Part shown: in pieces, positions 12,745-43,595 of the stretch | Layout: each line of letters starts with the position of its first letter | How positions within the stretch are numbered: the stretch's first letter is position 1 | Source of the DNA: Yoonia sp. GPGPB17 | Lineage (GTDB): Bacteria; Pseudomonadota; Alphaproteobacteria; Rhodobacterales; Rhodobacteraceae | Assembly: GCF_037892195.1 (NCBI RefSeq) | Contig: NZ_JATACI010000002.1 | Location: 1,550,001 to 1,614,000, forward strand | Direction of reading: 5' to 3' | DNA length: 64,000 nucleotides | Translations under genes and position numbers: made by a program | The notes under the pieces: generated by a model | The model's input: only the letters and a program-made list of their open reading frames with translations | The model's database searches: none | Told to the model about the DNA's origin: nothing

Positions 12745-13345
12745 ATGGCCACGAAAACCGAACTCCGGCGACAGGAACTGCGCGACAAGCTGATCGTGAT
12801 TGCCGAACGGACCATTGCCCAAAAAGGTCTGGGCGCATTGCGTGCGCGTGATCTGGCGGGCGAAGCTTAGCTGCGCCGTTGGGGCCATCTACAATGTCTT
12901 CGGCGATCTGACTGATCTGGCACTGGCGGTGAACGCACGTACCTTCCATCGCCTTGGCGCTGACGTGGCCGAGGCATTGGCAGACGCCCCAGAAGACCCT
13001 GTCGAACAGCTGGTTGTGATGGCGCAGGCCTATCACCGGTTTGCGGCTGAAAATCATCTGAGCTGGCGCGCGCTCTTTGACGTGGAACGCGCGCCCGGTG
13101 AAGCCGCACCAGATTGGTACTTGCAGGAAATGGGCCAGCTGTTTGTCTATATCTCTGATCCGTTGGCGGTGATTTTCCCTGATCGGGACGCAGAAGACCT
13201 GGCACTTTTGACCCGTGCGCTCTTTTCTTCGGTACATGGCATTGTGCTTTTGGGGCTGGATGAGGCGAGCGCCGGTGTCTCGTCCGAGAATATCGACCGG
13301 ATGATTGCCCTTGTTTTAAAGCAATTCGCGGGCAATCCAAAATAA
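12745..13345 (+). pseudogene. TetR-family transcriptional regulator, frame-broken at GCTTAGC
   Basis: The N-terminal helix-turn-helix frame begins at ATG 12745 behind GAGG and runs to ALRARDLAGEA, then hits TAG inside GCTTAGC (12865-12871). The next frame continues with CAVGAIYNVFGDLTDLALAVN, the second half of a TetR DNA-binding domain, and a 140-residue ligand-binding domain. Reading GCCGGC in place of GCTTAGC gives LAGEAGCAVGAIYNVF, the family-typical junction, and a 199-residue protein. It should be the repressor of itself and of the downstream pspA-yiaA genes, since TGAAC-N3-GTTCA palindromes flank both. If the break is real in the cell, the psp-like genes would be constitutive. Confidence 0.85.
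12865..12871. repeat. GCTTAGC at a frame break (tetR)
   Basis: Seven-base variant of the GCTTAAGC element. It contains the premature TAG of tetR. Replacing it by the 6-base GCCGGC removes one base and restores the frame. Confidence 0.6.
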
Positions 13346-13363
13346 TTTGAACAATGTTCAAAT
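13345..13363. promoter_or_regulatory. Operator-like palindrome 1 upstream of pspA
   Basis: ATTTGAAC-AAT-GTTCAAAT, a perfect 8+3+8 palindrome that begins in the last base of the tetR stop codon and ends 6 bp before the putative -35 box of pspA. It has the same TGAAC/GTTCA core as the site in front of tetR. Confidence 0.7.
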
Positions 13364-13369
13364 TTTTTC

Positions 13370-13398
13370 TTGCAATATGAAATCGCATTCGCTATCTC
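13370..13398 (+). promoter_or_regulatory. Putative sigma-70-type promoter of pspA
   Basis: TTGCAA (13370-13375) and TATCTC (13393-13398) separated by 17 bp. One operator palindrome lies just upstream of the -35 and another just downstream of the -10, an arrangement suited to repression by the TetR protein. No -24/-12 sigma-54 signature was seen here. Confidence 0.45.
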
Positions 13399-13405
13399 TA
13401 ATTAA

Positions 13406-13418
13406 TGAACAATGTTCA
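13406..13418. promoter_or_regulatory. Operator-like palindrome 2 upstream of pspA
   Basis: TGAAC-AAT-GTTCA, the core of palindrome 1 with the same AAT spacer, 7 bp after the -10 box and 26 bp before the pspA ATG, where a bound repressor would block RNA polymerase. Confidence 0.7.
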
Positions 13419-13444
13419 CGCACTGAAATGAAACGGAGACAACG

Positions 13445-14125
13445 ATGTTCAAGACACTTGCCACACTGATCAACGGTCAGAATGCGCGCGCCGAAGACCG
13501 CGTGCGGGATGCCTTTGCAATCGAGTTGATCGACCAGAAAATTCGCGAAAGCGAGAAAAGCCTGCGCGCGGCCAAAGCCACGCTTGCCAGCCTGATCCAG
13601 CGTCAGCGGTCCGAGGAAAAGCAACATGCCGCCCTCAAGACCCGCATCAGCGACCTGACGAAACGCGCCAAAGAGGCGCTGGACAATGATCGCGAAGACA
13701 TGGCCGCCGAGGCCGCCCGCGCCATCGCCAATATGGAAAACGAGCTGACAGTGCGCACCGAGACCCTTGATCGGTTGGACCAAAAGGTCATCCGTCTGCG
13801 CACGTCCATCGAAAGCGGTCACCGCCGGATCATCGACCTTAAACAAGGTGCCATTCAGGCCCGTGCCGTGCGCCGTGAACAGAACATTCAGGTGCAAATG
13901 GTCAAAACCGGCGTGCAAAACGGCAGTGTCGAAGAGGCCGAGGAACTGATCTCACGCGTGTTGGGCAAAGATGACCCCTTCGAGCGGACCGAAATTCTGG
14001 CCGAGATTAACAGCGATCTGGACGGCGACAGCCTGACCGATCGCATGGCCGACGCAGGCTTTGGCAATGCCACACGCGCAACAGCTGATGATGTGCTGGC
14101 CCGCCTGCAATCAAACAAAAAGTAA
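13445..14125 (+). CDS. pspA: PspA/IM30 family envelope-stress protein
   Basis: A 226-residue, almost wholly helical protein. It starts MFKTLATLINGQNARAEDRV like other PspA/Vipp1 proteins and continues as a long coiled coil rich in Glu, Lys, Arg and Ala (about residues 25-145), followed by a shorter C-terminal helical region with SVEEAEELISRVLGKDDPFE. PspA-type proteins assemble on the cytoplasmic face of damaged membranes and preserve the proton gradient. In enterobacteria the system is controlled by sigma-54 and PspF; here no PspF or sigma-54 site is visible, and a TetR protein with matching operators appears to replace them. GGAG precedes the ATG and yiaA follows after 36 bp. Confidence 0.92.
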   Translation: MFKTLATLINGQNARAEDRVRDAFAIELIDQKIRESEKSLRAAKATLASLIQRQRSEEKQHAALKTRISDLTKRAKEALDNDREDMAAEAARAIANMENELTVRTETLDRLDQKVIRLRTSIESGHRRIIDLKQGAIQARAVRREQNIQVQMVKTGVQNGSVEEAEELISRVLGKDDPFERTEILAEINSDLDGDSLTDRMADAGFGNATRATADDVLARLQSNKK

Positions 14126-14161
14126 CCCAATAGAACCACCAATTCCCGAAAGGAAAATCCA

Positions 14162-14440
14162 ATGTTTAACAATAAATCCGACAACGGCCTGATCATGTTC
14201 GTCAACCTGCTGGGTGTGGGTGTCGCCTACGGTATGCTTGGTATCTCGCTCTGGCTGTCCACCGATGTGCCGCTTTCGACCAAAGGGTTCTGGGCCATCT
14301 CGGTCATGATGCTGACGCTGTCGCTGGTGAACTTCGTCAAGTACCGCTTCGATGAGCGTATGTCAGAAGACCGCATCCAGCGCCTTGAGGCCGCAAAGAA
14401 CGAAAAACTGCTTGAGGATTATGTCGGCGAACCCCTCTGA
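14162..14440 (+). CDS. YiaA/YiaB-type two-helix inner-membrane protein
   Basis: A 92-residue protein with two membrane helices: about residues 9-31 (IMFVNLLGVGVAYGMLGISLW) and 41-60 (KGFWAISVMMLTLSLVNFVK), followed by a charged cytoplasmic tail with RMSEDRIQRLEAAK. This is the YiaAB two-helix arrangement. It is 36 bp downstream of pspA behind an AGGAA ribosome site, and a strong terminator follows, so pspA and this gene form the whole transcript. A membrane partner or anchor for PspA is a reasonable inference. Confidence 0.8.
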   Translation: MFNNKSDNGLIMFVNLLGVGVAYGMLGISLWLSTDVPLSTKGFWAISVMMLTLSLVNFVKYRFDERMSEDRIQRLEAAKNEKLLEDYVGEPL

Positions 14441-14455
14441 TCACCTGACATAATG

Positions 14456-14491
14456 GCCCCGCCCCCTTGTCCCCGGGGGTGGGGCTTTTTT
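14456..14491 (+). terminator. Rho-independent terminator after pspA-yiaA
   Basis: An 11-bp GC stem (GCCCCGCCCCC pairing with GGGGGTGGGGC, one G-T pair), loop TTGTCCCC, then six T. It separates the stress cassette from the phospholipid genes. Confidence 0.85.
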
Positions 14492-14528
14492 CTTTTCAAA
14501 CGCCCCTCCCTTCGCCAAAGTCGGTGCT

Positions 14529-15170
14529 ATGAAATTCTTACGTCAGTTTGCCGCCCGGATCGTTGGGCAATCCATCCGTATCTTTGCCCGCGCCATCACC
14601 GCCGTGCGGGCCGACTGGAAAGGGATCGAACCGGTTCCGCGTCAGCGCGTCTACTTCGCCAACCACACCAGCAACGCCGATATGCCAATGATCTGGTCGG
14701 TCCTGCCGCCATCAATGCGGCGCACGGTGCGCCCGGTTGCTGCGGCCGATTACTGGCTGAAGAACAAACTGCGCGCCTTCGTCGGCCCAGAAGTCTTCAA
14801 CTGCGTCCTTGTTGATCGCCGCCCCGAAGTCAAAGACAAGCCAATGGACAAGATCATCGCTGCCCTCGACGAAGGATCCTCGCTAATCATCTTCCCCGAA
14901 GGCAACCGCAACATGACAGACGACCCGCTGCTGCCGTTCAAGGCGGGCCTTTACAATATGGGCGTCGCGCGGCCTGATGTTGATCTGGTCCCCACTTGGG
15001 TCGCCAACCTGACCGAGATCATGCCCAAGGGCGAAATCATCCCCCTGCCCCTGATTTGTACTGTCACTTTTGGCGAACCGATCCATGTAAAGGAAGGCGA
15101 AAGCAAGGATGACTTCCTGAAACGCGCCTCGGACGCCCTGCTGGCCCAGCGCCCCGAGGTGCGGCCATGA
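14529..15170 (+). CDS. 1-acyl-glycerol-3-phosphate acyltransferase-like (PlsC family)
   Basis: A 213-residue acyltransferase. The catalytic HX4D box is in YFANHTSNAD (His46, Asp51) and the glycerol-phosphate binding motif is IIFPEGNRN. It lacks a long N-terminal membrane anchor but has amphipathic helices at residues 1-25. It should transfer an acyl chain to lysophosphatidic acid, or a related lysolipid, at the inner membrane. The next gene is a CDP-diglyceride synthase whose ATG overlaps this stop codon (ATGA), so the two act in successive steps of phospholipid synthesis. Confidence 0.87.
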   Translation: MKFLRQFAARIVGQSIRIFARAITAVRADWKGIEPVPRQRVYFANHTSNADMPMIWSVLPPSMRRTVRPVAAADYWLKNKLRAFVGPEVFNCVLVDRRPEVKDKPMDKIIAALDEGSSLIIFPEGNRNMTDDPLLPFKAGLYNMGVARPDVDLVPTWVANLTEIMPKGEIIPLPLICTVTFGEPIHVKEGESKDDFLKRASDALLAQRPEVRP

Positions 15171-16110
15171 CCGACACGATGACCGATATCCTGCTGTTGG
15201 CCGTCGGCAGTTTCGGGATTCTGATTGCCCTGACCTTCTTGGGTGAAGTCCTGCGTGCACGCGAAGAACCAGGCTTCGTGAACCCGGTTCTCGATACCTA
15301 TATGACCCGTGTGCAAAGCTGGTGGGGCATGGTCGCCTTCGTAGGCTTTGCTTTATTGATGGGCCGGATCGGGGTGATGGTCCTGTTTGCTTTCGCGTCT
15401 TTCGCCGCCTTGCGCGAATTCCTGACGCTGACCGCCAAAGCACAGGCCGATCACCTGGCGCTTGCTCTTGGGTTCTTTGTGGTCCTGCCGTTACAGTATG
15501 TCTTTATCGGGCTTGGATGGGACGGGCTTTATGCGATTTTCATCCCGGTCTACGCCTTCCTGCTACTGCCCATCGTCTCGGCCCTGCGTGGCAACCCCGA
15601 CCGCTTCCTCATGCGGGTGGCCGAAACACAATGGGCACTGATGATCGCAGTATTCTGCGTCAGCCATGTGCTTAAGCCTTGATGAACCTTGATATTGCGG
15701 GATACGGCGACCGGTCGCTGCTGCTGGTCGCTTTCCTGGTCATGGTCGTACAATTCGGCGACCTGCTGGAGTATTTCTTTGGCCGACGCATTGGTAAGAC
15801 CAAAATAGCACCCGGCCTGTCGCCCAAAACATGGGAAGGGATGCTGTGCGGCGTTGGCTCAGCGATGATTATCGGCGCGCTGTTAAACTGGATCACCCCA
15901 TTCGGAATGATCGGCGCGATGGCGATGGCAGGCACCGCATCCTTAGTTGGCATGTTTGGCAGTCTGGTGGTTGCCTCGATCAAACGCGATCGCGGCGTGA
16001 AAGACTGGTCGCACCTGATCCCCGGTCAGGGCGGCTTTGTTGATCAACTCGACAGTGTGATCTTCGCAGCACCAATCTTTTATCACCTGTCCAAGTATTT
16101 CTACACCTGA
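15167..16110 (+). pseudogene. Phosphatidate cytidylyltransferase (CdsA-like), frame-broken at GCTTAAGC
   Basis: Two abutting frames make one CDP-diglyceride synthase of 313 residues. The first (171 codons) contributes hydrophobic segments from DILLLAVGSFGILIALTFL up to VFCVSHV. The second resumes with LMNLDIAGYGDRSLLLVAFLV, then VVQFGDLLEYFFGRRIGKTKIAPGLSPKTWEG in pieces, and ends with the family signature KRDRGVKDWSHLIPGQGGFVDQLDS. The break lies on GCTTAAGC (15670-15677); GCCGGC there gives SHVPALMNLDI in one frame. As written, a TGATG overlap could still let the halves be translated as two coupled polypeptides. It forms CDP-diacylglycerol from phosphatidate and CTP at the inner membrane. 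Confidence 0.85.
15670..15677. repeat. GCTTAAGC palindrome at a frame break (cdsA-like)
   Basis: One of four copies seen in the window. Replacement by GCCGGC (two bases shorter) fuses both halves of the CdsA-like gene. Confidence 0.65.
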
Positions 16111-16856
16111 CCACGGCCAATAAACTGCGGCAGTTTGGACAGGTTCTTGGCAACCAACGTGCCAACACCCCCGACCCGGTGCCGCCGGATTGCACGATAA
16201 TCCTCGCGGCTTTTGCGGATCAGATGCGCGAAAGATCGGTTGCTGACACCGCCCATTTTCATGCGCACCATGACCTTTGGGATATAGCCCAGCCGGACCT
16301 GTCCCGCAGTCAGAAACCGCAACATCGCCTCATAGTCACCCGCTATGCGATAGCTGGTGTCATACAACCCCGAACGTGCAAAGACCGCGCGCCGCAGATA
16401 CAGCGTCGGATGCGGCGGCATCCAGCCGCGTTTGAGATGGGCGACAGAGTAGGGGCCAGCTTGCCAGCGACGAATAATCCGGGAAGGATCGTCCCGGGCC
16501 ACATATTGTAGGTCTCCATAAACACCGTCGATGGCGGTGTCCTGCAACGCCTCTGCTACCCAAGCCAACACATCTGGATCAGCCAGGGTATCATCGGCAT
16601 GCAGCAGGCCAATCACATCACCCGATGCGCGCTGGATACCTTTATTGATCGCGTCGTAGATCCCGCTGTCGGGGGTGGATTGTAACACCATCTGCGGATG
16701 CCCATCTGCGCTCAGATAGTCTTGTGTACCATCGGTCGAGCCACCATCCTGCACCACATGTTCAATGTCACCGTAAGTTTGCGCGGTCAGGCTTTCTATC
16801 ATGGCAGGCAGTGTCTTGCGGCCATTCATCACCGCTGTCACAACTGAAATCTTCAT
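16101..16856 (-). CDS. Family 2 glycosyltransferase
   Basis: A 251-residue cytosolic GT-A enzyme beginning MKISVVTAVMNGRKTLPAMIESL, with the nucleotide-sugar region VVQDGGSTDGTQDYL, the metal-binding GLLHADDTLADPD and a later HPTLYLRRAVFARSG. This subtype is common in exopolysaccharide loci and adds a single sugar to the lipid-linked repeat unit. Its 3' end overlaps the convergent cdsA-like gene by 10 bp, and its start overlaps the stop of the preceding glycosyltransferase gene (ATGA), marking the last gene of the minus-strand polysaccharide operon. Confidence 0.88.
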   Translation of the reverse strand: MKISVVTAVMNGRKTLPAMIESLTAQTYGDIEHVVQDGGSTDGTQDYLSADGHPQMVLQSTPDSGIYDAINKGIQRASGDVIGLLHADDTLADPDVLAWVAEALQDTAIDGVYGDLQYVARDDPSRIIRRWQAGPYSVAHLKRGWMPPHPTLYLRRAVFARSGLYDTSYRIAGDYEAMLRFLTAGQVRLGYIPKVMVRMKMGGVSNRSFAHLIRKSREDYRAIRRHRVGGVGTLVAKNLSKLPQFIGRGQV

Positions 16857-17769
16857 GCGGCAATCCCCTTTGTCACAGGTTTATGCGGGGTGACATCAAT
16901 ACCCAGTACGTCGCGGATTGCGTCTTCTGGCGCGGCACCGGTCGTCGCCATATGGCGTTTCACTTCTGCCAGTTTCGCATCCACCAGATAGCGGTACCAA
17001 AATCCTTGCAGCACATGAAATGCACGTGCCTGTTTGCCATCACGAAAGCCGCCACGCAGAATATACCGGTAAAGAAAATACCCCCCGCGCGCGCACCCGC
17101 AGGCAGGCGTGGATAGAGATGCAGCTTGATCCAGCGCTTGATTGCAAGGCCACCCCGCCCCGGCAATGCTTGCCCCAGCGGCAGAAACCGGTATTCGCGG
17201 TTCAACATGTCCACGACTTCGCGGCTGGCGTAACCATTGTGCTTGGCCACCCACCAGTCCAGCGGGTTGCGGTTGTCATCGATAATCCGCCCGCTCAGAT
17301 GCGCGGTCGGCCCATCAACGACAATATGCTCATCCATCCAGCGTGCCTCGCACCGGGCGCGACCGTTCCGAAACAAACGCAGCGTTGGCACAGGAAAGAC
17401 ACCGCCGTAACGCACCAGTTGCCCCATGAATTTGATGCCGCGCCCGACATAACACCCGTCTACATCCGGCAGGCCCGCGGCTATTTCGGCATCGAGCGCG
17501 GATGTGACCACCTCATCGGCATCCAGACGCAATACCCAGCCCGGATTGCCATCAATTTGGTCTAACGCCCAATTGAACTGGGTCGCATGGTTGGTCCAGG
17601 GGTGGTGCAACACCTCTGCCCCCAAATCGCGCGCGATGGACACAGTAGCATCAGTTGAGCCGCTATCAACGACCAAGACACGGGTTGCAATATCTTGTAC
17701 CGAGGCAATCGCCCGCGCGATATGCTTGGCCTCGTCCCGGGTCAAAATAATAACGGTCAACTGCGTCAT
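16853..17769 (-). pseudogene. Family 2 glycosyltransferase, frame-broken at a C-run
   Basis: From ATG 17769 the frame reads LTVIILTRDEAKHIARAI, then VVDSGSTDATVSIARDLGAE and LRLDADEVVTSALDAEI, a WaaE/KdtX-like GT2 domain. Near the C-run 17081-17086 (G on the coding strand) it goes out of frame; the second frame continues YFLYRYILRGGFRDGKQARA and ends at 16853. Adding one base to the run gives a 305-residue protein in which RAGGYFLYRYILRGGF is continuous, as in full-length relatives. The enzyme would transfer a sugar to the lipid-linked repeat in the cytoplasm. As at the alcohol dehydrogenase gene, the run is six identical bases, so a homopolymer miscall is likely. Confidence 0.83.
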
Positions 17770-18902
17770 GCGATCACCTCTTGCCGTTTTTGCATGACCA
17801 GACCCCGGTAAAGCGCCTCGAACCCATCCACCATCGCGGCCGTAGAAAAGTCACGACGCATCCATGCGCGACCGCGTTGGCCCATATCGACCAGATCACA
17901 GGTGGCGAGAGCCGCGATCTGGGCCGCCAGATCAACGTTCGGCAAATCAATACAGCGCCCGCAGCCGTGGCGATCCAAATCTTGCCATGGCGTCGCTTGT
18001 GTCGTCAGAACGGGTACCGCATGAGCCAAAGCCTCAGCCACTACGATGCCAAAGTTTTCAGAATGCGAGGGCAGTACAAAAAGGTCCGCCTGTGCAAAGG
18101 CTGCGGACTTTGCCGCTCCTTCCACATGCCCATGCATGCGTACACGGCCATTCGACAGCCTTGCGCGCGCCTCCAGCATCCGCACATAGGACGCATCACC
18201 CGTCCCGTAAATGTCCAGCGTGAACGTCGCTGGCAAATGGGCCAAGGCGTCGAACAATGCTTCCAATCCCTTCTTGGGGTGCAAGCGGCTAAGATACATC
18301 AAACGCCGTTTTGGACCCTGCCTCTCGCGCCTTGGGACATGCGCGGGCACATCAACTGCATTCGGAATAATCGCATGCGCCATGCCGCCAAACCTGCGCA
18401 AGCTTTGCCTTGCCTCTTGCGCGGCGGTCACATGCAAAACCGCATTGCGCGGACGCAAGAGGTTTGCCACATGCTCAAACCCGCGCTTGATGGCGAGATT
18501 GGGCGCATCGGGCCAATCCTGAGTTGCTTGCAAGGCCCCGCGCGGGGACCAAACAACGGGCTTGCCCAAAGCACGTGCCAGGATAAAAACCGGGAGCGTC
18601 GGCATGTTGTAGGTGCCGGTCACATGGACAACATCCGCCCATTGGATTGCGCGTGGCAGGCGCAGCAACAGCTGAGGCGCGATGCAATGGCCCGCCATGC
18701 GATGCGCATAATACACAGGATAAGGCAGCTTGGTCGGTGTCACCCGATCATTGATCGCTGGCCCGGCAGCGTCTGATGTGAGCACGCGCAGATCGACATC
18801 GTCCAACTTGGCAATTCCGTCGCAAATCGCCTTGGTCGACCAGATCGGGCCACCCCAATACGTGGCCGGGTAAAACGTCGGGACAACATGCAAGACTTTC
18901 AT
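17766..18902 (-). CDS. Family 4 glycosyltransferase
   Basis: A 378-residue GT-B enzyme. The N-terminal domain starts MKVLHVVPTFYPATYWGGPI, with a VHVTGTYNMPTLPVF segment; the C-terminal nucleotide domain contains LMYLSRLHPKKGLEALFDAL, the DIYGTGD loop and the E(x)7E motif in LPSHSENFGIVVAEALAHAVP. These are the standard retaining GT4 features. It overlaps both neighbours by 4 bp (ATGA on both sides), indicating one operon with the two GT2 genes downstream and the acetyltransferase upstream. Confidence 0.9.
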   Translation of the reverse strand: MKVLHVVPTFYPATYWGGPIWSTKAICDGIAKLDDVDLRVLTSDAAGPAINDRVTPTKLPYPVYYAHRMAGHCIAPQLLLRLPRAIQWADVVHVTGTYNMPTLPVFILARALGKPVVWSPRGALQATQDWPDAPNLAIKRGFEHVANLLRPRNAVLHVTAAQEARQSLRRFGGMAHAIIPNAVDVPAHVPRRERQGPKRRLMYLSRLHPKKGLEALFDALAHLPATFTLDIYGTGDASYVRMLEARARLSNGRVRMHGHVEGAAKSAAFAQADLFVLPSHSENFGIVVAEALAHAVPVLTTQATPWQDLDRHGCGRCIDLPNVDLAAQIAALATCDLVDMGQRGRAWMRRDFSTAAMVDGFEALYRGLVMQKRQEVIA

Positions 18903-22051: not shown

Positions 22052-22189
22052 CGCACGACAACCATCCGCGCGTGCCGTTAACCAAAAGGCACGCCAGCTT
22101 TAGTCCTCATTCATTGTGATTAATTAAAGGTTAACTCCTTTGTGGTGTCTTAACGGTGACGGATTAGAACAACCAAGGCTCGGTTTGAC

Positions 22190-24162
22190 ATGACGCAACG
22201 CAACAAAGGGGCTGGGCCGGGCCCGCATGACAGCCTCATTGATGGGGCAGAGTACATCGCCCCGCTTGATATCGGTGCGATGCTGCGCACCTTGTGGCAT
22301 GGCAAATGGATGATCTTATGGGTGACAGCCCTGATGATCACTTGCGCGGGGTACTATGGGTTTCGCGTCGCATCACCGCAATACACGGCCACCGCGACGC
22401 TGCAATTGGACGGGACCGCCGATCCGATGGTTGGCATGCAACAAATGCCCGAAATGGACGATGCCGCGCTGAACACCAAGGTCGCATTGGTGACGTCCAA
22501 TGCGGTATTGGCAGATGTCATTGCTGAACTGGACCTTCTGTCAGATCCGGAACTGAACCGATATCTGTCGGCGCAGTCACCACTGTCCTTGCGCAGCATA
22601 CGCACGCAGACACGCCATGTTCTTGCTTAAGCACAAATGCGCACCCGCCAGATGAGGACGCCGTCCAGGAAAAAACAATCCAGAACCTGCGCGGACAACT
22701 GACCGTATCGCGAAAGCCAGATACTTACATCGTGCACATCACGGCACGCAGCGGTGATCCCGACAAAGCTGTCTTGCTGGCGAATACAACCGCGGCACGT
22801 TTTTTGGCACATATGCAAACCCTGCAAGCCCAGACACAGGTCGAGGCCGGAATCTGGTTACAATCGCGGGTGAGCACATTGCGCAGCCAGCTTGAAACGC
22901 AAGAAATGCAAATCGCAGCACTGATTGCAACGGCACAACTCCAACAAAATGGGGGGCTTGATACGCTTAGCGCGCAGGTCCTTGCTACCGATCAAGACTT
23001 GACTGCCGCACGCAATGCGCTGGCCGTGCTGGAAATCGCGCCCAACAGCGGTTCGGCCCGCAACAGAGCTGAAATTGCACAGATACGTGAAAAAATCGGT
23101 GATATCGCGGCGCTGAAGGAACGGCTTAGTGCCCAGTTGTCAGCGCAGTCCGCTGGATTGGCACAGCTACACCAGTTGCAGTTACAAACCGACGCAACAC
23201 GCCAACTTTACCAGACGTTTCTGGGGCAGTTGCACGAAAACAAGATGCAACAAGGGCTGGACACGCCGCGGACAGAGCGGATCGCGCACGCAACCGAGGG
23301 AGGCTATGTTGGACCGCGCAAAATGTTGATCCTGACAATCGCAGCGATGCTGGGCGGTGCGGTCGGGGTGATGCTCGTAGCCATCCAACACAATACGCGC
23401 AAGGGCGTTGTTGATGGCCGTGACCTGCGTGATGCAACCGGGTTGCCCGTGCTGGCACAATTCTCAACCAGCGCGCTCAGGCAATTGCGCAAAGGGCAGC
23501 GGGCATTCCCCCTACCGCCAAAATCGGAACTGTCGCATGCCGCCTACGGGCTTTACACAGCCCTGGCACTGATCACACAGACGCGGCCTGCACAGGTCAT
23601 GCTATGCACATCCAGCATTGAGTCCGAGGGGAAAACAGAAACGGCGCTCCTGCTGGCGCATGCGCTGGCCCGGTCTGGAAAACGCGTTTTGATCATTGGT
23701 GCTGACGAACGCGATAAACAGCTGGGCACCACCATCGAGGCCGAGGTCATGGACGCGGCCCTGACAACCTGGCACAGTGGAGAACCGGCTGCGCAAAGCG
23801 CAAGGCTGGGTACCGATGTTCTGCGGGTTCCGACTATTGCTGATGGTATAGGACCATCGAACGCGGATAACCTCACCGAATGGCTGAGCACCCTTAAACA
23901 ACTCTATGATCATATCGTCATAGATGGGCCGCCCGTGTTCCACAGCCCCCTTGCAAGGCTGCTCGCCAGCCACGCAGATACTATTCTTTATGCTGTCCGC
24001 TGGTCCAAAACGCCGACAGAGGTTGTACAACGCGGTTTGGAAACGCTGGAAGACATCGGTCACCCGGCAACCGGGCTGATCTTGTCAAAAGTGCATCTGC
24101 GCAAGATGCGCAAACTGTCCAGTGATCCTTATGTGGGGATGTTTTCGACGCAAATCGTTTGA
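22190..24162 (+). pseudogene. Wzz/tyrosine-autokinase-like polysaccharide co-polymerase, frame-broken at GCTTAAGC, degenerate kinase
   Basis: The first frame (22190-22630) holds the Wzz N-terminus: a helix around KWMILWVTALMITCAGYYG and the SPQYTATATLQLD segment. It stops at the TAA inside GCTTAAGC (22625-22632). The second frame continues AHPPDEDAVQEKTIQNLRGQ, a periplasmic coiled coil, a second helix (MLILTIAAMLGGAVGVMLV) and a CpsD-like domain. GCCGGC at the break gives one 656-residue protein. The kinase part is degenerate: Walker A reads SSIESEGKTE, Walker A' reads VLIIGADERD where the first Asp is Gly, Walker B IVIDGPP is normal, and no C-terminal Tyr cluster is present (it ends DPYVGMFSTQIV). 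It should control chain length and export of the exopolysaccharide. Confidence 0.83.
22625..22632. repeat. GCTTAAGC palindrome at a frame break (wzz-like)
   Basis: It contains the premature TAA of the wzz-like gene in frame GCT-TAA-GC. Reading GCCGGC restores HVLAGTNAHPPDEDA. Confidence 0.65.
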
Positions 24163-24190
24163 AGGGGACGCTATACGCGGCCCCTTCATA

Positions 24191-25795: not shown

Positions 25796-25797
25796 GC

Positions 25798-26057
25798 TTA
25801 ATACCACGCAACCAGCTGCGCGGTGGTCCCCGTTGCCATCACGCGGGTCGGCCGGATTGACAATATGCTGCTTAAGCAGCCAGATCATAAGCCACCGCCT
25901 CGCCATCATTGTCCTGCAGGACGGCGGTACCAGCGGTATTCACATAGATCGCCCGAGGTCTGACCGGGAGATCCGTAGCATCAGATGGGGCAATGACATA
26001 GTGGGCCACAGCGGGGGATGTCAGGTTCACATAGTCGGTGTCAAAGGGATCAGGCAT
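25798..26057 (-). pseudogene. GTA-type head-spike base protein (GhsA/Rcc01079 family), frame-broken at GCTTAAGC
   Basis: The first frame, from ATG 26057, reads TSPAVAHYVIAPSDATDLP, then RPRAIYVNTAGTAVLQDNDG and stops in GCTTAAGC (25870-25877). Another frame of the same strand continues SSILSIRPTRVMATGTTAQLVAWY and stops at 25798. With GCCGGC at the break the protein has 85 residues and reads DLAAGSILSIRPTRVMATGTT. The pattern TPSD-x-DLP-x3-RAIYV ... LPIRP-x-RV-ATGTTA is, as I recall, that of the small spike-base proteins of Rhodobacteraceae gene transfer agents and some phages. It would anchor the fibre on the GTA capsid. The next gene begins two bases later. Confidence 0.72.
25870..25877. 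repeat. GCTTAAGC palindrome at a frame break (spike base)
   Basis: Read on the minus strand it gives GCT-TAA-GC after codons for YDLA. Replacement by GCCGGC links the two halves of the spike-base protein. Confidence 0.65.
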
Positions 26058-26179
26058 TCTGGGTCTCCAGTTAAGAACGATGCCTCATCCCTAAGTGCCA
26101 GACCTTACCAACCGCCTTTGCAACAGTACGTCGGACGATGCAACACCCGAGCTTTATGACGACGCTCACGGGCCTGTCT

Positions 26180-28377: not shown

Positions 28378-29546
28378 CTACAGGCACTCAGCCAATGTCG
28401 CTGCCATGTTCCGGATCAGTTGCGGATAAAGCGTTGGGCCAGGTTCCAAATCCACACCAAGCGGATCGATGACGCTTGTCTTCGCCGTCGTTCCGTCAAG
28501 CACTGTCGCGACCAATCCGGGATTGAACTGCGGCTCTGCCAATACGCAGTCGATACCTTCGTCACGCACGCGCTCCTGAATTTCAGCGATCCGCGCCGGG
28601 CTTGGATCAGTCGCATCGCCCAATGAAATCGCGCCGGATGCCGGGAAATCAAAGTCGTTTTCGAAATACTGATACGCATCGTGGAAAACGACAAAGCTTT
28701 GACCGCGAACCGGGGCAAGAACCTCTGTCACCTCGGCAGAAAGGGCAGACATTTCGGCCTGCGCCGCAGCCGCGTTGGCAAAGTAAGTGCTTAAGCATTG
28801 TCGGGATCTGCGGACGATAGTTCAGCAGCGATCAGGTTCAGCCAAGCTGTTGCATTTGTTGGAGACAGCCAAGCATGTGGGTCATGTTCGCCGTGATCGT
28901 GCCCTTCATGGCCATCTGCATGGTCATCATGATCGTCGTGCCCGTGGTCATCATGATCGTCGTGCCCGTGATCATCATGGTCATGATCATCGTGGCCATC
29001 GTGTGCCGCGTCTTCTGCCTTTTCTTCGTGATCATGAGCTTCGTGTTCTTCGTGATCATGAGCTTCGTGTTCTTCGTGATCATGTGCTTCGTGGTCATGG
29101 TCGTCGTGATCATGCTTGCCTTCCGCATGCGCGTCTTCATCGTGATCGTCATGGTCATCACCATGTCCGTCATGATCATGCGCTTCAAAAAGCGCAGTTT
29201 CGCGGAAATCAAGAAGCGTCGTTTCATCCGCCTCTAGCAGCGTCATAACAGCCGCGTCAGCGGCAAGCGTGTCAATTGCACCTTCCATCCAGGGTGCCAG
29301 GTCTTCGCCCATCCAGACGACGATATCGGCCTCTTGCAGGGCTGCTGCCTCGGATGGGCGCAGGCTGTATTCATGCGGCGACGCACCAGGTGGTAGGATA
29401 AGGCTGGGTTCACCAACACCCTCCATGACACGGGCCACCAATGAGTGCACCGGCGCAATATCGACGGCCACATTGGGCACATCAGCCATGGCAGTCCCAC
29501 CCATCAAAGTGGCGACTAAGGAGAGTGAAGCGTGCTTTCTGGACAT
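28378..29546 (-). pseudogene. znuA: Zinc ABC transporter substrate-binding protein ZnuA, frame-broken at GCTTAAGC
   Basis: The first frame, from ATG 29546, has a signal peptide (residues 1-21, ending GGTAMA), PPGASPHEY with zinc ligand His58, an unusually long acidic His-rich loop at about residues 122-221, and HDPHAWLSP with a second ligand. It stops at the TAA of GCTTAAGC (28789-28796). Another frame then supplies YFANAAAAQAEMSALSAEV, SFVVFHDAYQYFE with the third His, and the C-terminal lobe to 28378. GCCGGC gives DPDNAGTYFANA and a 388-residue protein. ZnuA captures periplasmic zinc for ZnuBC. It is divergent from zur, with a Zur box between them. As written the protein would lose its C-terminal lobe. 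Confidence 0.92.
28789..28796. repeat. GCTTAAGC palindrome at a frame break (znuA)
   Basis: It contains the premature TAA after SSADPDNA. Replacing it by GCCGGC rejoins the two lobes of ZnuA. Confidence 0.65.
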
Positions 29547-29607: not shown

Positions 29608-29623
29608 AAGAGAGGCGCAGCGC

Positions 29624-30121
29624 ATGCCTGGCCAAAAGGTGACACCGCTTGGGTTTGAAGAGCATGATCACAAGGCCTGTGTAGCGCAGACATTGGCAGC
29701 AGCGGAGGACCGTTGCGCCGCCGAAGGGCTGCGGTTGACGCCTGTTCGACGCAAAGTGCTTGAGCTTTTGGCACAAGAACATCGCGCCCTTGGTGCCTAT
29801 GCTATTCTTGACCTTCTGCGCGAGGCAGGTTTTGGCTCGCAGCCCCCTGTGGCCTATCGCGCGCTTGATTTTCTGGCAGAGCACGGGTTCGTACATAAGA
29901 TCGAGCGCTTGAACGCGTTTGTCGCATGCGCCCACCCCAATCAGAACCATTCGCCCGCCTTCATGATCTGCCGTTTGTGTGACGCTGTAGCCGAAGCGCA
30001 TTCAACACCGGCAAAAGGTGCGTTAGGTGATGCCGCGCGGGCCGCCGGCTTTCAGATTGAAAAGACCGTGGTCGAGGCAGAAGGGATTTGCCCCGCCTGT
30101 TTGGATAAGGCCCAAGCATGA
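29624..30121 (+). CDS. zur: Zinc uptake regulator Zur (Fur family)
   Basis: A 165-residue Fur-family repressor. ATG 29624 is preferred because AGAGG lies 8 nt upstream; an earlier ATG at 29603 lacks a ribosome site and overlaps a Zur-like box. The winged helix contains LRLTPVRRKVLELLAQEHR and PVAYRALDFLAEHGFVHKIE; the structural zinc site is formed by CRLCDAVAEAH and CPACLDK, two CxxC pairs. A histidine pair typical of Zur is in CAHPNQNHSPAF. With zinc bound it represses znuA and probably its own operon through the boxes upstream. Its stop overlaps the znuC start (ATGA). Confidence 0.93.
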   Translation: MPGQKVTPLGFEEHDHKACVAQTLAAAEDRCAAEGLRLTPVRRKVLELLAQEHRALGAYAILDLLREAGFGSQPPVAYRALDFLAEHGFVHKIERLNAFVACAHPNQNHSPAFMICRLCDAVAEAHSTPAKGALGDAARAAGFQIEKTVVEAEGICPACLDKAQA

Positions 30122-31652: not shown

Positions 31653-31748
31653 AAGGTAAAGGTCTGCGCCCGCCTAGGTCGTCAAGCGGGCTCTGCGCGT
31701 TCCAAAGCGTTCTCTGCCGACTGAAGGGACAACGTTGGCCAAACCCAT

Positions 31749-32261: not shown

Positions 32262-32402
32262 GTAGGACGGATGGCAGCTTTTGTACGGCAACGAAAGGAA
32301 TTTCAGAATGCGGTTTAGGATTTTTGAAGCCCTAGCGGCACCCTGCTCGACGGGCTATTTTCAAGATATCATCGTGCAATTGACTGCTTGGCTGCACCGC
32401 AC

Positions 32403-34440: not shown

Positions 34441-34472
34441 GTCTGCGCATACCCTGCCGTCAATATTGGCGA

Positions 34473-35831: not shown

Positions 35832-35863
35832 ATTGAATGCTCCGTTTGTAGTCTGCGTAGCTG

Positions 35864-38491: not shown

Positions 38492-38784
38492 AACGTCCCC
38501 CGTAGGTTTTTTTGGTAGCAGTGCGTTTGTTTTTGCATTGAGATATTGGCTATTGAGCAATTGTGGCAAAATCTAGATGCTGCACTGCCGAAGTAAGCGA
38601 GAATCTGCTTGTTTTTAGGTATTTAAGCATCGGTTAGGCTGAAAACTGTGAAAATCTCTAAACGACAACATGCTTTTGCCTCATTTACAGGCAAAGACTT
38701 TATACTGGTTTTCGGACATTGGTTTGATGGCCTCTGTGTTGGTAGAAATTGCGGAATTTCAAGAAAGAAAGTGCTGGGTCCCCA

Positions 38785-40497
38785 ATGGCAAGAGTGATGA
38801 CTGTCCACCTGGATGACATTGAAATTCCTGCACGTTTTCTCCATGATGGCACATTGAGTCACGCCGATGTGTTGCGCGTCCGGCAAGTCAGCAGCACTAC
38901 CGGTCAGCCAGTTCGTGTCGTGCTTGATCGGCTGGGGATTGTACCCCAAAGCACCTGGGCAGAAGCCGTTGCTCAGGATCACGACCTGCCATTGCTGTCG
39001 CTCGACGATTTTCCGCTGAGATTGCCACAAGATAGCCGCCTTTCGCTCGATTACATGAAACAAAACAGTATTGCACTCCTGACTGTTGATGAAACAGAAC
39101 CGCCAAAAGTCGCGATTGCGAATCCCATGGCGGCGCAAGTCCGGCGCGCACTCAAGATGACTTTCGGTGCAGAGATTGACTATGCCGTCGCCACTGATCG
39201 CGATATCGACGCAGCATTGGCCCGCAGTGCCGCCGCAGCCGACGATGAGCAAAAGACCGCAACAGCAACAGAAACCTTGCTGACTGTCACCGAGGACGGT
39301 GACGATACAGACCGGCTGCTTGAGTTAGCCAACAACGCGCCAACTGTGCGATACATCGACGGGTTGCTGGCGAAAGCGGTGGAAAGCAAGGCCACCGATA
39401 TTCATGTGGAGATGCTTGAAAAAACCCCCCGCGTGCGTTTACGGATCGACGGTATTCTGGTGCCCGCGAACCCCATCGAACGGCATCTTTATGATGGTGT
39501 CGTCTCACGTCTGAAAATTCTCGCGGGTATGGACATCAGCGAACGCCGCTTGCCGCAGGACGGGCGCATTCGCCAGCAGACCGCGGGGCGGTCTATTGAT
39601 ATCCGGGTGGCAAGTATGCCGACGGTCCATGGCGAAACGCTGGTACTGCGCTTGCTGGACAACAGCAAAACCCTCGCTGCTCTTGATCGGCTTGCGATGC
39701 CGGACCTTGCCTTTGGCCGCATGAAAGATGCGCTTAGCCAACCTAATGGGTTGATCCTTGTAACCGGGCCGACGGGTAGCGGGAAAACCACAACGCTGCA
39801 TGCGTCGCTGGCGCAGATCAACGACAGCGGGCGCAAGATCATTACTATTGAAAACCCGGTGGAAATTCAGACACCCGGATTGATTCAGATCGACGTGAAC
39901 CCAGATCTGGGATGGACCTTTGCGAGCGCATTGCGCTCGGTCCTGCGTCATGACCCTGATGTGCTTATGGTTGGTGAAATCCGTGATGCGGAAACAGCAG
40001 AACTGGCGGTACGTGCCGCACTGACCGGGCACCTGGTCCTGTCTACACTGCACACCAACCGCGCATCCGAGGCGGTCTTGCGTCTGGGCGATATGGGCGT
40101 GCCTGACTATATGTTGCAATCGGTGCTGCGACTTGTGGGCGCACAACGTTTGATCAGAACGCTTTGCAGCAATTGTGCGGAACCTGTCGCGCTGCATGAA
40201 AATGATAAATACATGACTTTGGCGCAGAGCTTTTATGATGCCGATCCGACCCTTGGGCCCCCTGACAGTTGGCAGCCGAAAATGGCCGTAGGATGCAGCC
40301 TTTGCAACAACACCGGATATGTCGGTCGCAAGGCATTGTTCGAGATGCTGACCCCGGAAGAGGCCATGGCGCCTGCGGATCAATCCAGGGCACAACAACG
40401 GACCATGGGGTTAGAAGGCGTTGGGCATTTTGCCCGTGGTGAAACAACACTGAACGAGCTGGTGCGCGTCTTTGGCGCGGGCGCGTTCTGGATCTGA
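38785..40497 (+). CDS. gspE: Type II secretion ATPase GspE
   Basis: A 570-residue ATPase from ATG 38785 (MARVMTVHLDDIEIPARFLH); a TTG at 38749 is possible. The N-terminal MshEN-like domain (residues 1-150) binds GspL; the catalytic part has DIHVEMLEKTPRVRLRIDG, Walker A GPTGSGKTTTLHASL, Asp box and Walker B region (DPDVLMVGEIRDAETAELAV), the His box HLVLSTLHTNRASEA, and the zinc tetracysteine pair CSNCAEP and CSLCNNTGYVGR. It powers pseudopilus assembly from the cytoplasm. It begins the plus-strand gspE-F-G-H-I-J-K-O operon. Confidence 0.94.
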   Translation: MARVMTVHLDDIEIPARFLHDGTLSHADVLRVRQVSSTTGQPVRVVLDRLGIVPQSTWAEAVAQDHDLPLLSLDDFPLRLPQDSRLSLDYMKQNSIALLTVDETEPPKVAIANPMAAQVRRALKMTFGAEIDYAVATDRDIDAALARSAAAADDEQKTATATETLLTVTEDGDDTDRLLELANNAPTVRYIDGLLAKAVESKATDIHVEMLEKTPRVRLRIDGILVPANPIERHLYDGVVSRLKILAGMDISERRLPQDGRIRQQTAGRSIDIRVASMPTVHGETLVLRLLDNSKTLAALDRLAMPDLAFGRMKDALSQPNGLILVTGPTGSGKTTTLHASLAQINDSGRKIITIENPVEIQTPGLIQIDVNPDLGWTFASALRSVLRHDPDVLMVGEIRDAETAELAVRAALTGHLVLSTLHTNRASEAVLRLGDMGVPDYMLQSVLRLVGAQRLIRTLCSNCAEPVALHENDKYMTLAQSFYDADPTLGPPDSWQPKMAVGCSLCNNTGYVGRKALFEMLTPEEAMAPADQSRAQQRTMGLEGVGHFARGETTLNELVRVFGAGAFWI

Positions 40498-40501
40498 TCC
40501 G

Positions 40502-41737
40502 ATGGCAGAGCCAGCATTGCGCACCGAACGGTCCTTTGACTACACCGCCCGCACCGCAGGCGGAGACCGCAAAAAAGGGCGTGTGAGCGCGCGCGACAGT
40601 GCGCATGCCACCCAAAAGCTGCGCCTTGAGGGGCTCTATCCAATTGACATCAAGGCGGCCCAAAAAACGCCTGCCAACACAGCCAAAGCAGTGACAAACC
40701 TGCGTAAACTGACACAGCGCCAACAAGCTGATCTGATCGCCCGGCTTGCAAAGCTGACCGGCAGCCAGATCACGCTGGATCGTGCGTTGTCGATCATCGC
40801 TGAAGGTAAGGATGGCGTGCTGCCTGTGGCCGCCTCAAAGTTACGGGTTCATATTCGCGAGGGTGGTGGTCTTGTCGATGGGCTTGTCACCCATCTGGGC
40901 ATCAAAGATGCAGCAACGCTGGCTTTGGTGCGCGGTGCCGAGGTATCAGGCGACCTGCCTCAGGCGCTCCGTACAGCAGCAGATATTTTGCAACAACGTT
41001 TGATGTTGGTCAGGCGCATTGGTGTTGGTCTGCTCTATCCTGGGCTTTTGCTACTGGTGGCGCTGATCTCAATCGGGTTGATCATGATCGCCGTGATCCC
41101 CCAATTCCGCCCGCTGGTTGAGGGCCGTATGGAGATGGTGCCGGTGTTGGGGCGGGCGATCTTTGGCATCTCCGCCAGTTTATCGGCAGTATGGCCGGTG
41201 ATCCTGACCGGGTTGATTGTGGTGACCATTGCATTGTGGTGGCTCCACCGGCAGGGCAAGGCGGTACCGCTGATGGCACGGATCGCAGCGCGCCTGCCGG
41301 TCATCAATCAGGTAATCTGGCGCAATCAAGTGATGATCGTCTTGCACAGCCTTGGCGCGCTTTTGCGCAGGGAGGTCACGCTGAGTGACGCATTGCAGGT
41401 CATCGTGTCATCCACACCGCAGGGGCGGATCAAAACAGCCCTGGCACAGGTGACCGGCGACATTGAAACGGGGCAGCCTTTGTCACGAGCACTGCGCAGT
41501 GCCGATTTCATGTCAGCGGGCGCCATCGAAATGGTCCGCATCGGTGAGGAAACCGGCGATCTGGCCGATATGATCGGCCGCGCCGCCGATGAAATGCGCG
41601 ATGCCGCCGATCGCGATCTTGAACGTTTTCTTGCACTTTTCCAGCCAGCGTTGATTATCTTCGTAGGTCTTCTAGTAGGGGTCAGCCTTTATGCGCTTTT
41701 CTCAGCCATTGTTTCTGTCAACGCGATCGCCTTCTAG
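40502..41737 (+). CDS. gspF: Type II secretion inner-membrane platform protein GspF
   Basis: A 411-residue protein from ATG 40502, four bases after the gspE stop. It starts with the FDYTARTAGGDRKKGRVSA strand common to GspF/PilC and has two cytoplasmic T2SSF domains (QADLIARLAKLTGSQITLDR and HSLGALLRREVTLSDALQVI, the latter with GEETGDLADMI) and three membrane segments, around 185-210, 235-255 and near the C-terminus (LIIFVGLLVGVSLYALFSAI). GspF connects the ATPase to the growing pseudopilus. Confidence 0.93.
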   Translation: MAEPALRTERSFDYTARTAGGDRKKGRVSARDSAHATQKLRLEGLYPIDIKAAQKTPANTAKAVTNLRKLTQRQQADLIARLAKLTGSQITLDRALSIIAEGKDGVLPVAASKLRVHIREGGGLVDGLVTHLGIKDAATLALVRGAEVSGDLPQALRTAADILQQRLMLVRRIGVGLLYPGLLLLVALISIGLIMIAVIPQFRPLVEGRMEMVPVLGRAIFGISASLSAVWPVILTGLIVVTIALWWLHRQGKAVPLMARIAARLPVINQVIWRNQVMIVLHSLGALLRREVTLSDALQVIVSSTPQGRIKTALAQVTGDIETGQPLSRALRSADFMSAGAIEMVRIGEETGDLADMIGRAADEMRDAADRDLERFLALFQPALIIFVGLLVGVSLYALFSAIVSVNAIAF

Positions 41738-41766
41738 GGCGACGGTCCGCAAGCGGCGGTTTTTCA

Positions 41767-42144
41767 TTGATCGAAATGCTGGTCGCCGTGGCCATCATTG
41801 GTCTGATCGTGGGCCTGGTAGGGCCAGCAGCGATGCGTCAGTTGCAGTCGTCCCGGGTCAATACGACCGAGGCACAGATTGGACAAATCCGCACCGCAAT
41901 CGACATCTTTACAATCGACACAGGCCGCATCCCATCAGAAGGTGAAGGGCTGCAAGCGCTGGTTACCAACGCCAACGCAGTCCCCGGTTGGAACGGTCCT
42001 TATCTGCGCGACGGCACCTTGCCGATGGACGGGTGGAGCCGCCCTTTCCTGTATGCTGTTGAGAACGGCCAAGTGCGTATCATCTCGCTGGGTGCTGATG
42101 GGCAGGCGGGCGGAACGGGCAATGATGCCGATATCGGCCGGTAA
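41767..42144 (+). CDS. gspG: Major pseudopilin GspG, 5' end unresolved
   Basis: The mature pseudopilin is clear: GGFSLIEMLVAVAIIGLIVG is the prepilin site and hydrophobic helix, followed by IGQIRTAIDIFTIDTGRIPS, then PSEGEGLQAL, the GWNGPYLRDGTLPMDGWS segment and a C-terminal ISLGADGQAGGTGNDADIGR, all typical of GspG with its calcium loop. In this frame the first start codon is TTG 41767, which lies after the cleavage site, and no ATG, GTG or TTG is available for the leader. The neighbouring frame has ATG 41691 followed by a basic leader (TRSPSRATVRKR); one extra base near 41755 would explain the break. So the true start is probably about 41691 and the sequence here may hold an error. Confidence 0.82.
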   Translation: MIEMLVAVAIIGLIVGLVGPAAMRQLQSSRVNTTEAQIGQIRTAIDIFTIDTGRIPSEGEGLQALVTNANAVPGWNGPYLRDGTLPMDGWSRPFLYAVENGQVRIISLGADGQAGGTGNDADIGR

Positions 42145-42544
42145 ACGCCACCACGCCCGCGGGCTGGCTACGGTCGAGGTGCTGGTCGCTGTTGCGATCA
42201 TCGTGCTGATCGGCAGCATCGCAACGCTGACCTTGGGCAGCACCGACCGCCGCGTCGTCGCGCGCGAGACGGCGGACATCAGCCTGTTTCTGCAACAGGC
42301 ACGTATGCGGGCACTCGAGCTGGGACGGCCTGTACAGATTGTCGTCTCGGGCAGCGAAGGCCGCATCGATGCCGGCGGGCAACACCATCAGGTGGCACGC
42401 GGCGTGACACTTACCCCCGACGACGCACGGCTTGTTTTGCAGCCGATAGGTGCTTCGGATGGCCTGAGCATAACAATCACGAAGGACGATGAGAGCGGCA
42501 CGGTGACGCTGGATTGGCTGACCGGACGGGTGGATATCAGATGA
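42122..42544 (+). CDS. gspH: Minor pseudopilin GspH
   Basis: A 140-residue protein, start ATG 42122 or 42125, overlapping the gspG end by 23 bp. The leader is short and basic (MMPISAGKRHHARG), then the cleavage site and helix LATVEVLVAVAIIVLIGSIA. The +5 Glu needed for assembly is present, although the first mature residue is Leu where Phe is usual. The globular part contains ISLFLQQARMRALELGRPVQ and ends in WLTGRVDIR. It belongs to the tip complex with GspI, J and K. Confidence 0.83.
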   Translation: MMPISAGKRHHARGLATVEVLVAVAIIVLIGSIATLTLGSTDRRVVARETADISLFLQQARMRALELGRPVQIVVSGSEGRIDAGGQHHQVARGVTLTPDDARLVLQPIGASDGLSITITKDDESGTVTLDWLTGRVDIR

Positions 42545-42933
42545 AGCGCCGCCGGGCCAAAGGCTTTACGCTGATCGAAACGCTGGTGGCACTGGCGATC
42601 GCGGCGGTGGTGATCAATGGGTTTTACAGCGCCTTGTCAACCGGGACCCTGCTTGAGCGCCGCGCGGATGATCAGGCACGGATGGTACTCGTGGCAACCA
42701 CTGTCATGGATCAGGTGGGTGTGGATGTTCCCCTACGCCCAGGCAATCGGAACGGTCAGTCCGACGGGCTCACATGGCAGTTGGTCATATCAAATGTGCA
42801 GGCTGCAGATATGCAGCTTGGCATGGTCTATGACAATGAACTGACTTTCGTTTCCGTCTCGGTCATGGACCCGACGGGCGTGTCCGCCCCGGTGGTCCTG
42901 CGTGCCATCCGCTATGCTCAGACCCCGCTATGA
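42541..42933 (+). CDS. gspI: Minor pseudopilin GspI
   Basis: A 130-residue protein whose ATG 42541 overlaps the gspH stop (ATGA). The prepilin leader MKRRRAKG is followed by FTLIETLVALAIAAVVINGF, a textbook type IV prepilin-like N-terminus with Glu at +5. The C-terminal part has LVATTVMDQVGVDVPLRPGN and GLTWQLVISNV, as in GspI. It nucleates the pseudopilus tip. Confidence 0.85.
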   Translation: MKRRRAKGFTLIETLVALAIAAVVINGFYSALSTGTLLERRADDQARMVLVATTVMDQVGVDVPLRPGNRNGQSDGLTWQLVISNVQAADMQLGMVYDNELTFVSVSVMDPTGVSAPVVLRAIRYAQTPL

Positions 42934-43595
42934 CACGACGCAGAGGTACATCAACCGGCTTTGTGCTTGCCGAAGCTTTGGTCGCCTTGACCGTGGCTGC
43001 AATGACCATTGCCTTGCTGACCAGCGCAACCTGGGGCTTGAATGCCGCCGCAGAACGGCGTGCCGCTGCAACGCAAACCAGCGCCGTAGATTGGCTCGCC
43101 GCACGACGGGCGCTTGGCAATTGGGCAGCGGCGGTGTGACCGCGCAAGGCCCGGAGGACAGCCTCAATAGCCTGATAGGCACGGCATCGACCGCACGGAT
43201 GGTTGTCGCACAAACACGCGGTGCTAAGCGCCGCAGGTCCATACGTTGGTGAACTGCGGGTGATGACGCGCGGGACAGATCGCTTTGTTCTGATCGCCGC
43301 GCAACACCCTGGACTGCGCGATGCGCGGGTCAGCTCGACCAGTGCATTGGAAACAGAGGTCGTGACAACCAGTTTACCGATGCGCCTGATATACCTCATT
43401 CCCAGCGGGCCAGGTGGACGTGGCGTTTGGCGCTACGAAACTGGGGCGGGCGAGGATGGTCTACCGCTTGCGATTGGGATCGAGGTCGGTACTCAGCGGG
43501 TGATCACTGCACCGATCCATCCCACCCGCAGTGCATCCTGTCTGGCCCGTTTGGGCCTACCCGGCGTTGATGACGAGACCTGTGATTTGCGATGA
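42930..43595 (+). pseudogene. gspJ: Minor pseudopilin GspJ, two compensating frame breaks
   Basis: From ATG 42930 (ATGA overlap with gspI) the frame gives TRRRGTSTGFVLAEALVALT, a prepilin leader and helix with +5 Glu, then ends at TGA 43137-43139. The next ~90 bp code in another frame (VTAQGPEDSLNSLIGTASTA), and from about 43225 the original frame resumes (LSAAGPYVGELRVMTRGTDR). Removing the extra GT in GTGTG (43134-43138) and reading GCCGGC for GCTAAGC (43223-43229) gives one 220-residue protein with WAAAVTAQGPEDS and QTRGAGAAGPYVGEL. The place between gspI and gspK supports GspJ. Similarity beyond the leader is weak. Confidence 0.75.
43223..43229. repeat. GCTAAGC at a frame break (gspJ)
   Basis: Reverse complement of the GCTTAGC seen in tetR. 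Reading GCCGGC (one base fewer) together with removal of the GT upstream restores the frame. Confidence 0.55.

Follow-up and report, generated by a model that had tools for sequence, protein, structure and literature searches.

Reading frames in a 64,000-nucleotide stretch of a Yoonia (Rhodobacteraceae) genome (C2:1550001–1614000, hereafter the window; the assembly measures 4.21 Mb in five contigs, with 3.84 Mb in contig C2) break at copies of a few short words, i.e., the palindrome GCTTAAGC and the variants GCTTAGC and GCTAAGC. With a probability that we put at about 92%, these product words are nanopore consensus errors at GCCGGC sites methylated by a NaeI-type restriction-modification system. 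The words are in surplus, GCCGGC is scarce, the words coincide with frame shifts, and the genome carries a NaeI-type restriction-modification gene pair. A preliminary description of the window had proposed that the sequence is corrupted at one specific motif, GCCGGC, a proposal that the present analysis supports and for which a fitting methylase gene is present.

Surplus words, missing GCCGGC and shifted frames

All six words reported in the preliminary description are present in the window, and GCCGGC is intact only at the two positions named there (Table 1), i.e., 2 copies vs. 42.9 expected. GCTTAAGC occurs four times in the window vs. 0.58 expected, a count reached in 1 of 100 shuffles. Counting across the genome, which the same description had suggested as a check, confirmed both departures: with 166 copies in 4.21 Mb, GCTTAAGC is at least 2.9 times as numerous as in any of the other 55 Yoonia genomes (3–58 copies), and GCCGGC, likewise at 166 copies, compares with 242–1456 in 18 Yoonia genomes (the equality of the two totals is a coincidence). 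The reversed control CGGCCG was unremarkable (1225 copies here; 452–1798 in the 18 genomes).

Word densities in an unselected 464 kb of this genome were set against those in 400 kb of Yoonia maricola; only the unselected part was used because the remaining stretches that entered the codon-frame test (see below) had mostly been picked for containing GCTTAAGC. GCCGGC was the most depleted of all hexamers relative to Y. maricola (19 vs. 81 copies; z of –7.0, with the next hexamer at –4.4). The surplus words were GCTTAAGC, GCTTAGC/GCTAAGC, and GCCTAAGC with its complement GCTTAGGC (together 15 copies vs. 2 in Y. maricola); the first three had been listed before, and the last two make that list incomplete. 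The GCCGGC deficit amounted to 75 (95% range 54–98) and the surplus of the five product words to 55 (95% range 35–76), so that the product words make up for roughly three quarters of the deficit. Extrapolation from the 464 kb gives about 500 product-word errors (roughly 310–690) in the 4.2-Mb assembly. Restriction avoidance may account for part of the deficit at most, and it leaves the surplus words and the frame shifts unexplained.

The flanking bases matter as well. A 5′ G preceded GCC in only 1 of 62 half-sites of the surviving GCCGGC copies vs. 36 of 162 in Y. maricola, and a T preceded GCTT in 91 of 224 half-sites (natural copies counted in) vs. 7 of 29, a flank dependence of the kind that signal-based misreading would be expected to produce. 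Separately, CCCGGG was the most enriched hexamer (81 copies in 464 kb vs. 21 in 400 kb of Y. maricola, i.e., about threefold denser), an excess that reflects either avoidance in Y. maricola or another motif effect here; a length change was seen at none of its 49 alignable copies.

The effect of the words on coding was assessed with an alignment-free codon-frame test that took 169 Y. maricola genes as its training set and covered 844 kb of the present genome with 66 copies of GCTTAAGC. In its final version, which uses several window lengths, GCTTAAGC shifted the frame by +2 in 26 of 38 callable copies and by +1 in five (27 further copies were unclear and one differed between strands). The earlier claim that this word marks gene frame breaks therefore holds for most copies, but not for the seven callable ones without a shift. 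A previous version with a single window length had yielded +2 in 10 of 14 callable copies, with 33 unclear and 19 at stretch ends. GCTAAGC shifted the frame by +1 in 13 of 24 callable copies (none in 10, +2 in one) and GCTTAGC by +1 in 9 of 27 (none in 16, +2 in two), outcomes that are more mixed because both words also occur naturally. Control words were shifted, in any direction, in 0–20% of callable copies: CGAATTCG in 0 of 12, GCAATTGC in 0 of 22, GCTTCAGC in 3 of 15, and GCGATCGC in 3 of 21. Among hexamers, the corresponding figures were 23 of 203 for CGGCCG, 22 of 235 for GCATGC, 29 of 231 for GGCGCC, and 1 of 26 for residual GCCGGC.

Alignment with Y. maricola (ca. 250 kb alignable at ca. 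80% identity) revealed 70 frame-changing gap clusters within reading frames of the relative, i.e., 27 of +1, 21 of –1, 15 of +2, and seven others. Among isolated gaps of one or two bases in which the present genome is the longer, 19 of 53 had GCTTAAGC, GCTTAGC or GCTAAGC within 9 bases (23 by a looser pattern), whereas none of the 38 gaps in which the relative is the longer lay at these three words. Of the 19 copies of GCTTAAGC in the 464 kb, six were alignable, and all six stand opposite a six-base word in Y. maricola, i.e., ACCCGC (twice), GCAGGG, CCCCGC, ACCGGC and GCAGGC, each one or two letters away from GCCGGC.

In the same alignment, product words accompanied by a gap of one or two bases were found at 22 sites in 21 reading frames of the relative. 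Except for a short frame at 25872, the proteins from these frames (20 of 21) were scanned against NCBIfam, and the intact relatives that scored above the curated cut-offs included HemE (uroporphyrinogen decarboxylase), UvrB (excinuclease), GlcF (glycolate oxidase), RsgA (ribosome GTPase) and phosphogalactonate aldolase; for 5 of the 20, no NCBIfam match at 1e-10 was obtained. The single hemE copy found in the genome lies in two pieces (C2:1700432–1700878 and C2:1700892–1701425) that meet at a GCTTAGC at about C2:1700885. Since a respiring bacterium is not expected to survive without heme synthesis, the sequence is probably wrong, at least at hemE. In the cell itself, the dozens of seemingly broken genes are likely to be whole.

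A NaeI-type gene pair and signs of nanopore sequencing

Outside the window, contig C2 encodes an endonuclease that matches the Pfam NaeI family PF09126 (E-value 1.1e-39; 136.8 bits vs. a cut-off of 25) and, over residues 16–263 of 294, the NaeI structure PDB 1ev7 (E-value 2.2e-19; 73 bits). Its D and VDxK align with the catalytic D...DxK of 1ev7. NaeI cuts GCCGGC, exactly the depleted word. A candidate for the methylase gene that the preliminary description had proposed to look for is the adjoining cytosine-5 methylase gene (one of two PF00145 genes in the genome, the other lying on contig C4), for which homology predicts GCCGGC specificity. A pair that recognizes and methylates GCCGGC would fit the depleted word. 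Next to the pair lie genes for SIR2 and a HerA ATPase (L104:11603–14487, i.e., C2:2815602–2818486; PADLOC E-values of 2.5e-114 and 3.1e-206), and together the NaeI pair and this SIR2-HerA-like defence pair look like a small defence island.

PF09126 is rare, being carried by 6 of 385 alphaproteobacteria sampled and by 1 of 56 Yoonia genomes, namely the present one. The single Yoonia genome with the NaeI gene is thus also the only one with the GCTTAAGC excess. In each of the five other carriers, a methylase adjoining the NaeI gene is 60–73% identical to the C2 methylase (the endonucleases are 32–37% identical), which ties the C2 methylase to the NaeI system. These five carriers hold 981–5821 copies of GCCGGC and 6–32 of GCTTAAGC, the latter in each case fewer than those of the genome's own control word. 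Because they lack the excess, carrying the system is not enough to produce GCTTAAGC, and a factor specific to this assembly is also required.

Several pointers suggest what that factor may be. Among one-base gaps in which the present genome is the shorter, 17 of 40 lay in runs of at least four bases vs. 5 of 42 for Y. maricola, and G/C runs of six and seven bases reached densities of 122 and 9.5 per Mb vs. 170 and 30 in Y. maricola. This scarcity of G/C runs and the losses in runs fit homopolymer under-calling, a pointer to nanopore sequencing. Completeness is 96.23% for the five contigs vs. 98–100% in the 14 other genomes of the genus listed with at most ten contigs. Nanopore-only Flye assemblies have been published for other Yoonia (PMC11482539), a methylation motif together with homopolymers has been reported to account for most nanopore consensus errors in a test (PMC6591954), and methylation-induced nanopore errors have been described as strain-specific (PMC11610573). 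As a side observation, single bases lost from C or G runs in the window and in 400 kb of neighbouring sequence seem to form another class of assembly error, distinct from the product words.

Taken together, the cell's DNA would read GCCGGC at most product-word sites, and the NaeI-type system would methylate it on both strands. If native DNA was sequenced on a nanopore platform and short-read correction was incomplete, the base-caller or polisher would misread the methylated half-sites, rendering GCC as GCTT, GCT or GCCT, and GGC as AAGC, AGC or AGGC. Combinations of such half-sites would then give GCTTAAGC (+2), GCTTAGC and GCTAAGC (+1), and GCCTAAGC and GCTTAGGC (+2), and hence false frame breaks.

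Nevertheless, a number of observations weigh against this explanation. About a quarter of the GCCGGC missing from the 464 kb is unaccounted for, and the 166 copies that survive genome-wide are explained in part by their flanks. Moreover, the frame is unchanged at 16 of the 27 callable GCTTAGC copies, and 34 of the 53 gaps that lengthen the present genome are accompanied by none of the three main words. When the alignment was read from the other side, 41 alignable GCCGGC copies of Y. maricola corresponded to GCCGGC here at one position and to a word of changed length at one; control hexamers were unchanged at 9 of 72 (CGGCCG) and 14 of 81 (GGCGCC) positions. Because sites are poorly conserved at ca. 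80% identity, matching positions one by one says little on whether GCCGGC was the original word, and support comes from depletion and homology instead. With respect to the platform, A/T runs of seven are denser here than in Y. maricola (35.5 vs. 17.5 per Mb), which counters an under-calling of all runs, and we only infer that this assembly was made from nanopore reads. The five other NaeI carriers distinguish an effect of the system from one of the assembly only if they were sequenced otherwise than this genome, and one of them (G074) is also poor in GCCGGC for its control word (981 vs. 2823). Finally, the errors described in PMC11610573 are two-base ambiguities, mostly between purines or between pyrimidines, whereas those here are mainly insertions of one or two bases that yield a few fixed output words.

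Competing explanations and related systems

The modified base itself could be bulkier or stranger than 5-methylcytosine, e.g., a cytosine to which a partner of this NaeI-type enzyme adds a further modification. Such a base seems unlikely; if it did exist, it would explain why insertions of one or two bases with constant output words take the place of the substitutions described for other methylated motifs.

Sequencing or polishing errors at GCCGGC could also stem from modification by another enzyme, for which a second type II pair on C4, a contig of 37 kb, is a candidate through its cytosine-5 methylase (this contig shares RepA/ParA genes with Rhodobacteraceae plasmids). This origin is quite improbable, given that the depleted word is exactly the known NaeI site and that a genus search for NaeI alone found this gene in no other of the 56 Yoonia genomes. 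Furthermore, the methylases adjoining NaeI genes in all five other carriers resemble the C2 methylase, whereas the C4 methylase is only distantly related to it (28% identity over one segment).

That the product words truly stand in the cell's DNA, as self-inflicted mutations from, e.g., NaeI-type cutting followed by error-prone joining, would agree with the presence of a gene for a GCCGGC cutter and with words located where cutting would occur. This is very hard to reconcile with the five other carriers, which keep up to thousands of GCCGGC sites and show no GCTTAAGC excess, with the splitting of the only hemE, and with hundreds of broken genes (by extrapolation), a load incompatible with a living cell. 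In addition, a palindrome and two reverse-complement pairs suggest strand-symmetric misreading, not the spread of lengths that repair scars would show. The site-specific rewriting or recoding entertained in the preliminary description finds no support, as the five NaeI carriers have no excess and the breaks fall in unrelated genes, including the only hemE.

In favour of programmed recoding or frameshifting at GCT-TAA, the word lies inside numerous genes, with a stop codon in one of its frames. Such recoding is extremely unlikely, in view of +1 and +2 variants in unrelated genes on both strands, of the seven callable GCTTAAGC copies in unbroken frames, and of the absence of the word from matching positions in relatives; a recoding site conserved in orthologues was not found among the six alignable copies, all of which face a six-base word in Y. 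maricola. Chance combined with gene decay, i.e., a common word in ordinary pseudogenes, would suit those same seven copies in intact genes and the 3–58 copies normal for the genus, and it hardly deserves credence beside a count beyond that of any relative, frame shifts whose length agrees with that expected from each word, the lack of reverse-direction gaps (0 of 38) and the depletion of a single hexamer.

Errors at methylated GCCGGC, as favoured here, resemble known nanopore methylation errors, such as those at Dcm sites in Klebsiella (PMC6591954) and those of PMC11610573, in affecting one motif in one strain and in being joined by homopolymer errors. With NaeI (PF09126; PDB 1ev7 and 1iaw), the pair shares an endonuclease homologue with a cytosine-5 methylase 72 bases away; it differs in that the likeness is moderate (73 bits vs. 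1ev7), activity, type IIE behaviour and specificity being putative here. GCCGGC methylation is also known from NgoAIV of Neisseria gonorrhoeae (PMC12871193) and from Aeromonas hydrophila NEB724 (PMC8565308). The methylase specificity that the preliminary description regarded as unreported is consequently not a new one, GCCGGC methylation being already in print and an NaeI-family gene with a cytosine-5 methylase being present. The available parts of these two papers make no mention of insertion errors, even though PMC12871193 used nanopore reads; the species are different ones, and the base-callers may differ too. In a limited literature search, fixed insertion words were not found described as an error type in the available parts of PMC11649196, PMC11610573, PMC6591954, PMC8565308 and PMC12871193.

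Neither recoding nor phase variation nor pseudogenes should be deduced from frame breaks at product words in this genome. More generally, a finished assembly can betray a methylation site even without its reads, through a depleted hexamer, a surplus of a longer word and a matching frame shift; here, this pattern led to a family of restriction-modification systems, a member of which the genome proved to carry. Applied to public long-read-only assemblies, such a test could flag damaged gene sets and suggest methylase specificities.

The individual sites

Table 1. Product words and intact GCCGGC copies of the window (numbered from its first base) and restriction-modification genes elsewhere in the genome (numbered by contig or sub-stretch)
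Feature	Position	Strand	Frame effect	Remarks
GCTTAGC	12865..12871		+1 frame break	gene labelled tetR in the preliminary description
GCTTAAGC	15670..15677		+2 frame break	313-residue gene, weakly similar to phosphatidate cytidylyltransferase
GCTTAAGC	22625..22632		+2 frame break	Wzz/Wzc-like exopolysaccharide gene
GCTTAAGC	25870..25877			probable product word; weakest of the six
GCTTAAGC	28789..28796	minus (gene)	+2 coding-frame shift	putative znuA of the preliminary description
GCTAAGC	43223..43229		one of two breaks bracketing a shifted block	putative gspJ of the preliminary description
GCCGGC, intact in the assembly	30044..30049			one of 19 in 464 kb
GCCGGC, intact in the assembly	42371..42376			one of 19 in 464 kb
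NaeI-family endonuclease	C2:2813438-2814322	minus		outside the window; 294 residues
Cytosine-5 methylase (PF00145)	C2:2814395-2815351	minus		72 bases from the NaeI gene, same strand
Second type II pair	L089:1465-3598			contig C4 (37 kb); methylase L089:1465-2817 with an overlapping open reading frame (PADLOC REase_II, E-value 1e-132)

Yoonia is a marine group that is not known to be pathogenic. The secretin product of the window is 91% identical to the counterpart in Y. maricola DSM 29128, and the best match of an 11.6-kb piece among 40 genomes of the genus reached 77% DNA identity. Comparison with orthologues bore out the frame change claimed for three of the six words, i.e., those at 12865, 15670 and 22625, and showed the word at 43223 to be one of two breaks, while those at 25870 and 28789 had no protein match. 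Specifically, the match to the Y. maricola protein at 12865 runs in frame 2 up to 12867 and in frame 3 from 12872 (residues 1–41 and 43–199), with a +1 gap in the DNA; the relative of this gene had no NCBIfam match at 1e-10. At 15670, the relative protein changes frame at the word (residues 1–168 and 170–313, the flanking parts being 95.8 and 94.4% identical) and the codon-frame test gave +2; the match of this gene to NF008635 (E-value 1.3e-18) falls far under the family cut-off. The Y. maricola protein likewise changes frame at the word at 22625 (residues 1–146 and 148–378), again with +2 in the codon-frame test, and this relative matches TIGR01005 under the cut-off (E-value 1.9e-30).

The word at 25870 coincides with a +2 gap relative to Y. 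maricola DNA, with which the codon-frame test (+1) disagrees, and no relative protein spans the site. For the word at 28789, the +2 shift comes from the codon-frame test, no relative being present in the Y. maricola stretches compared. The word at 43223 closes a block (43094–43216) that is out of frame with its flanks in the match to a 220-residue relative, with gaps at 43127 and 43216.

A region on contig C2 before the NaeI gene (L104:2707–9381) holds short consecutive frames that by eye resemble calcium-binding repeats, one of them ending at GCTTAAGC (L104:7536); sequencing errors may have split a single long repeat protein into these frames.

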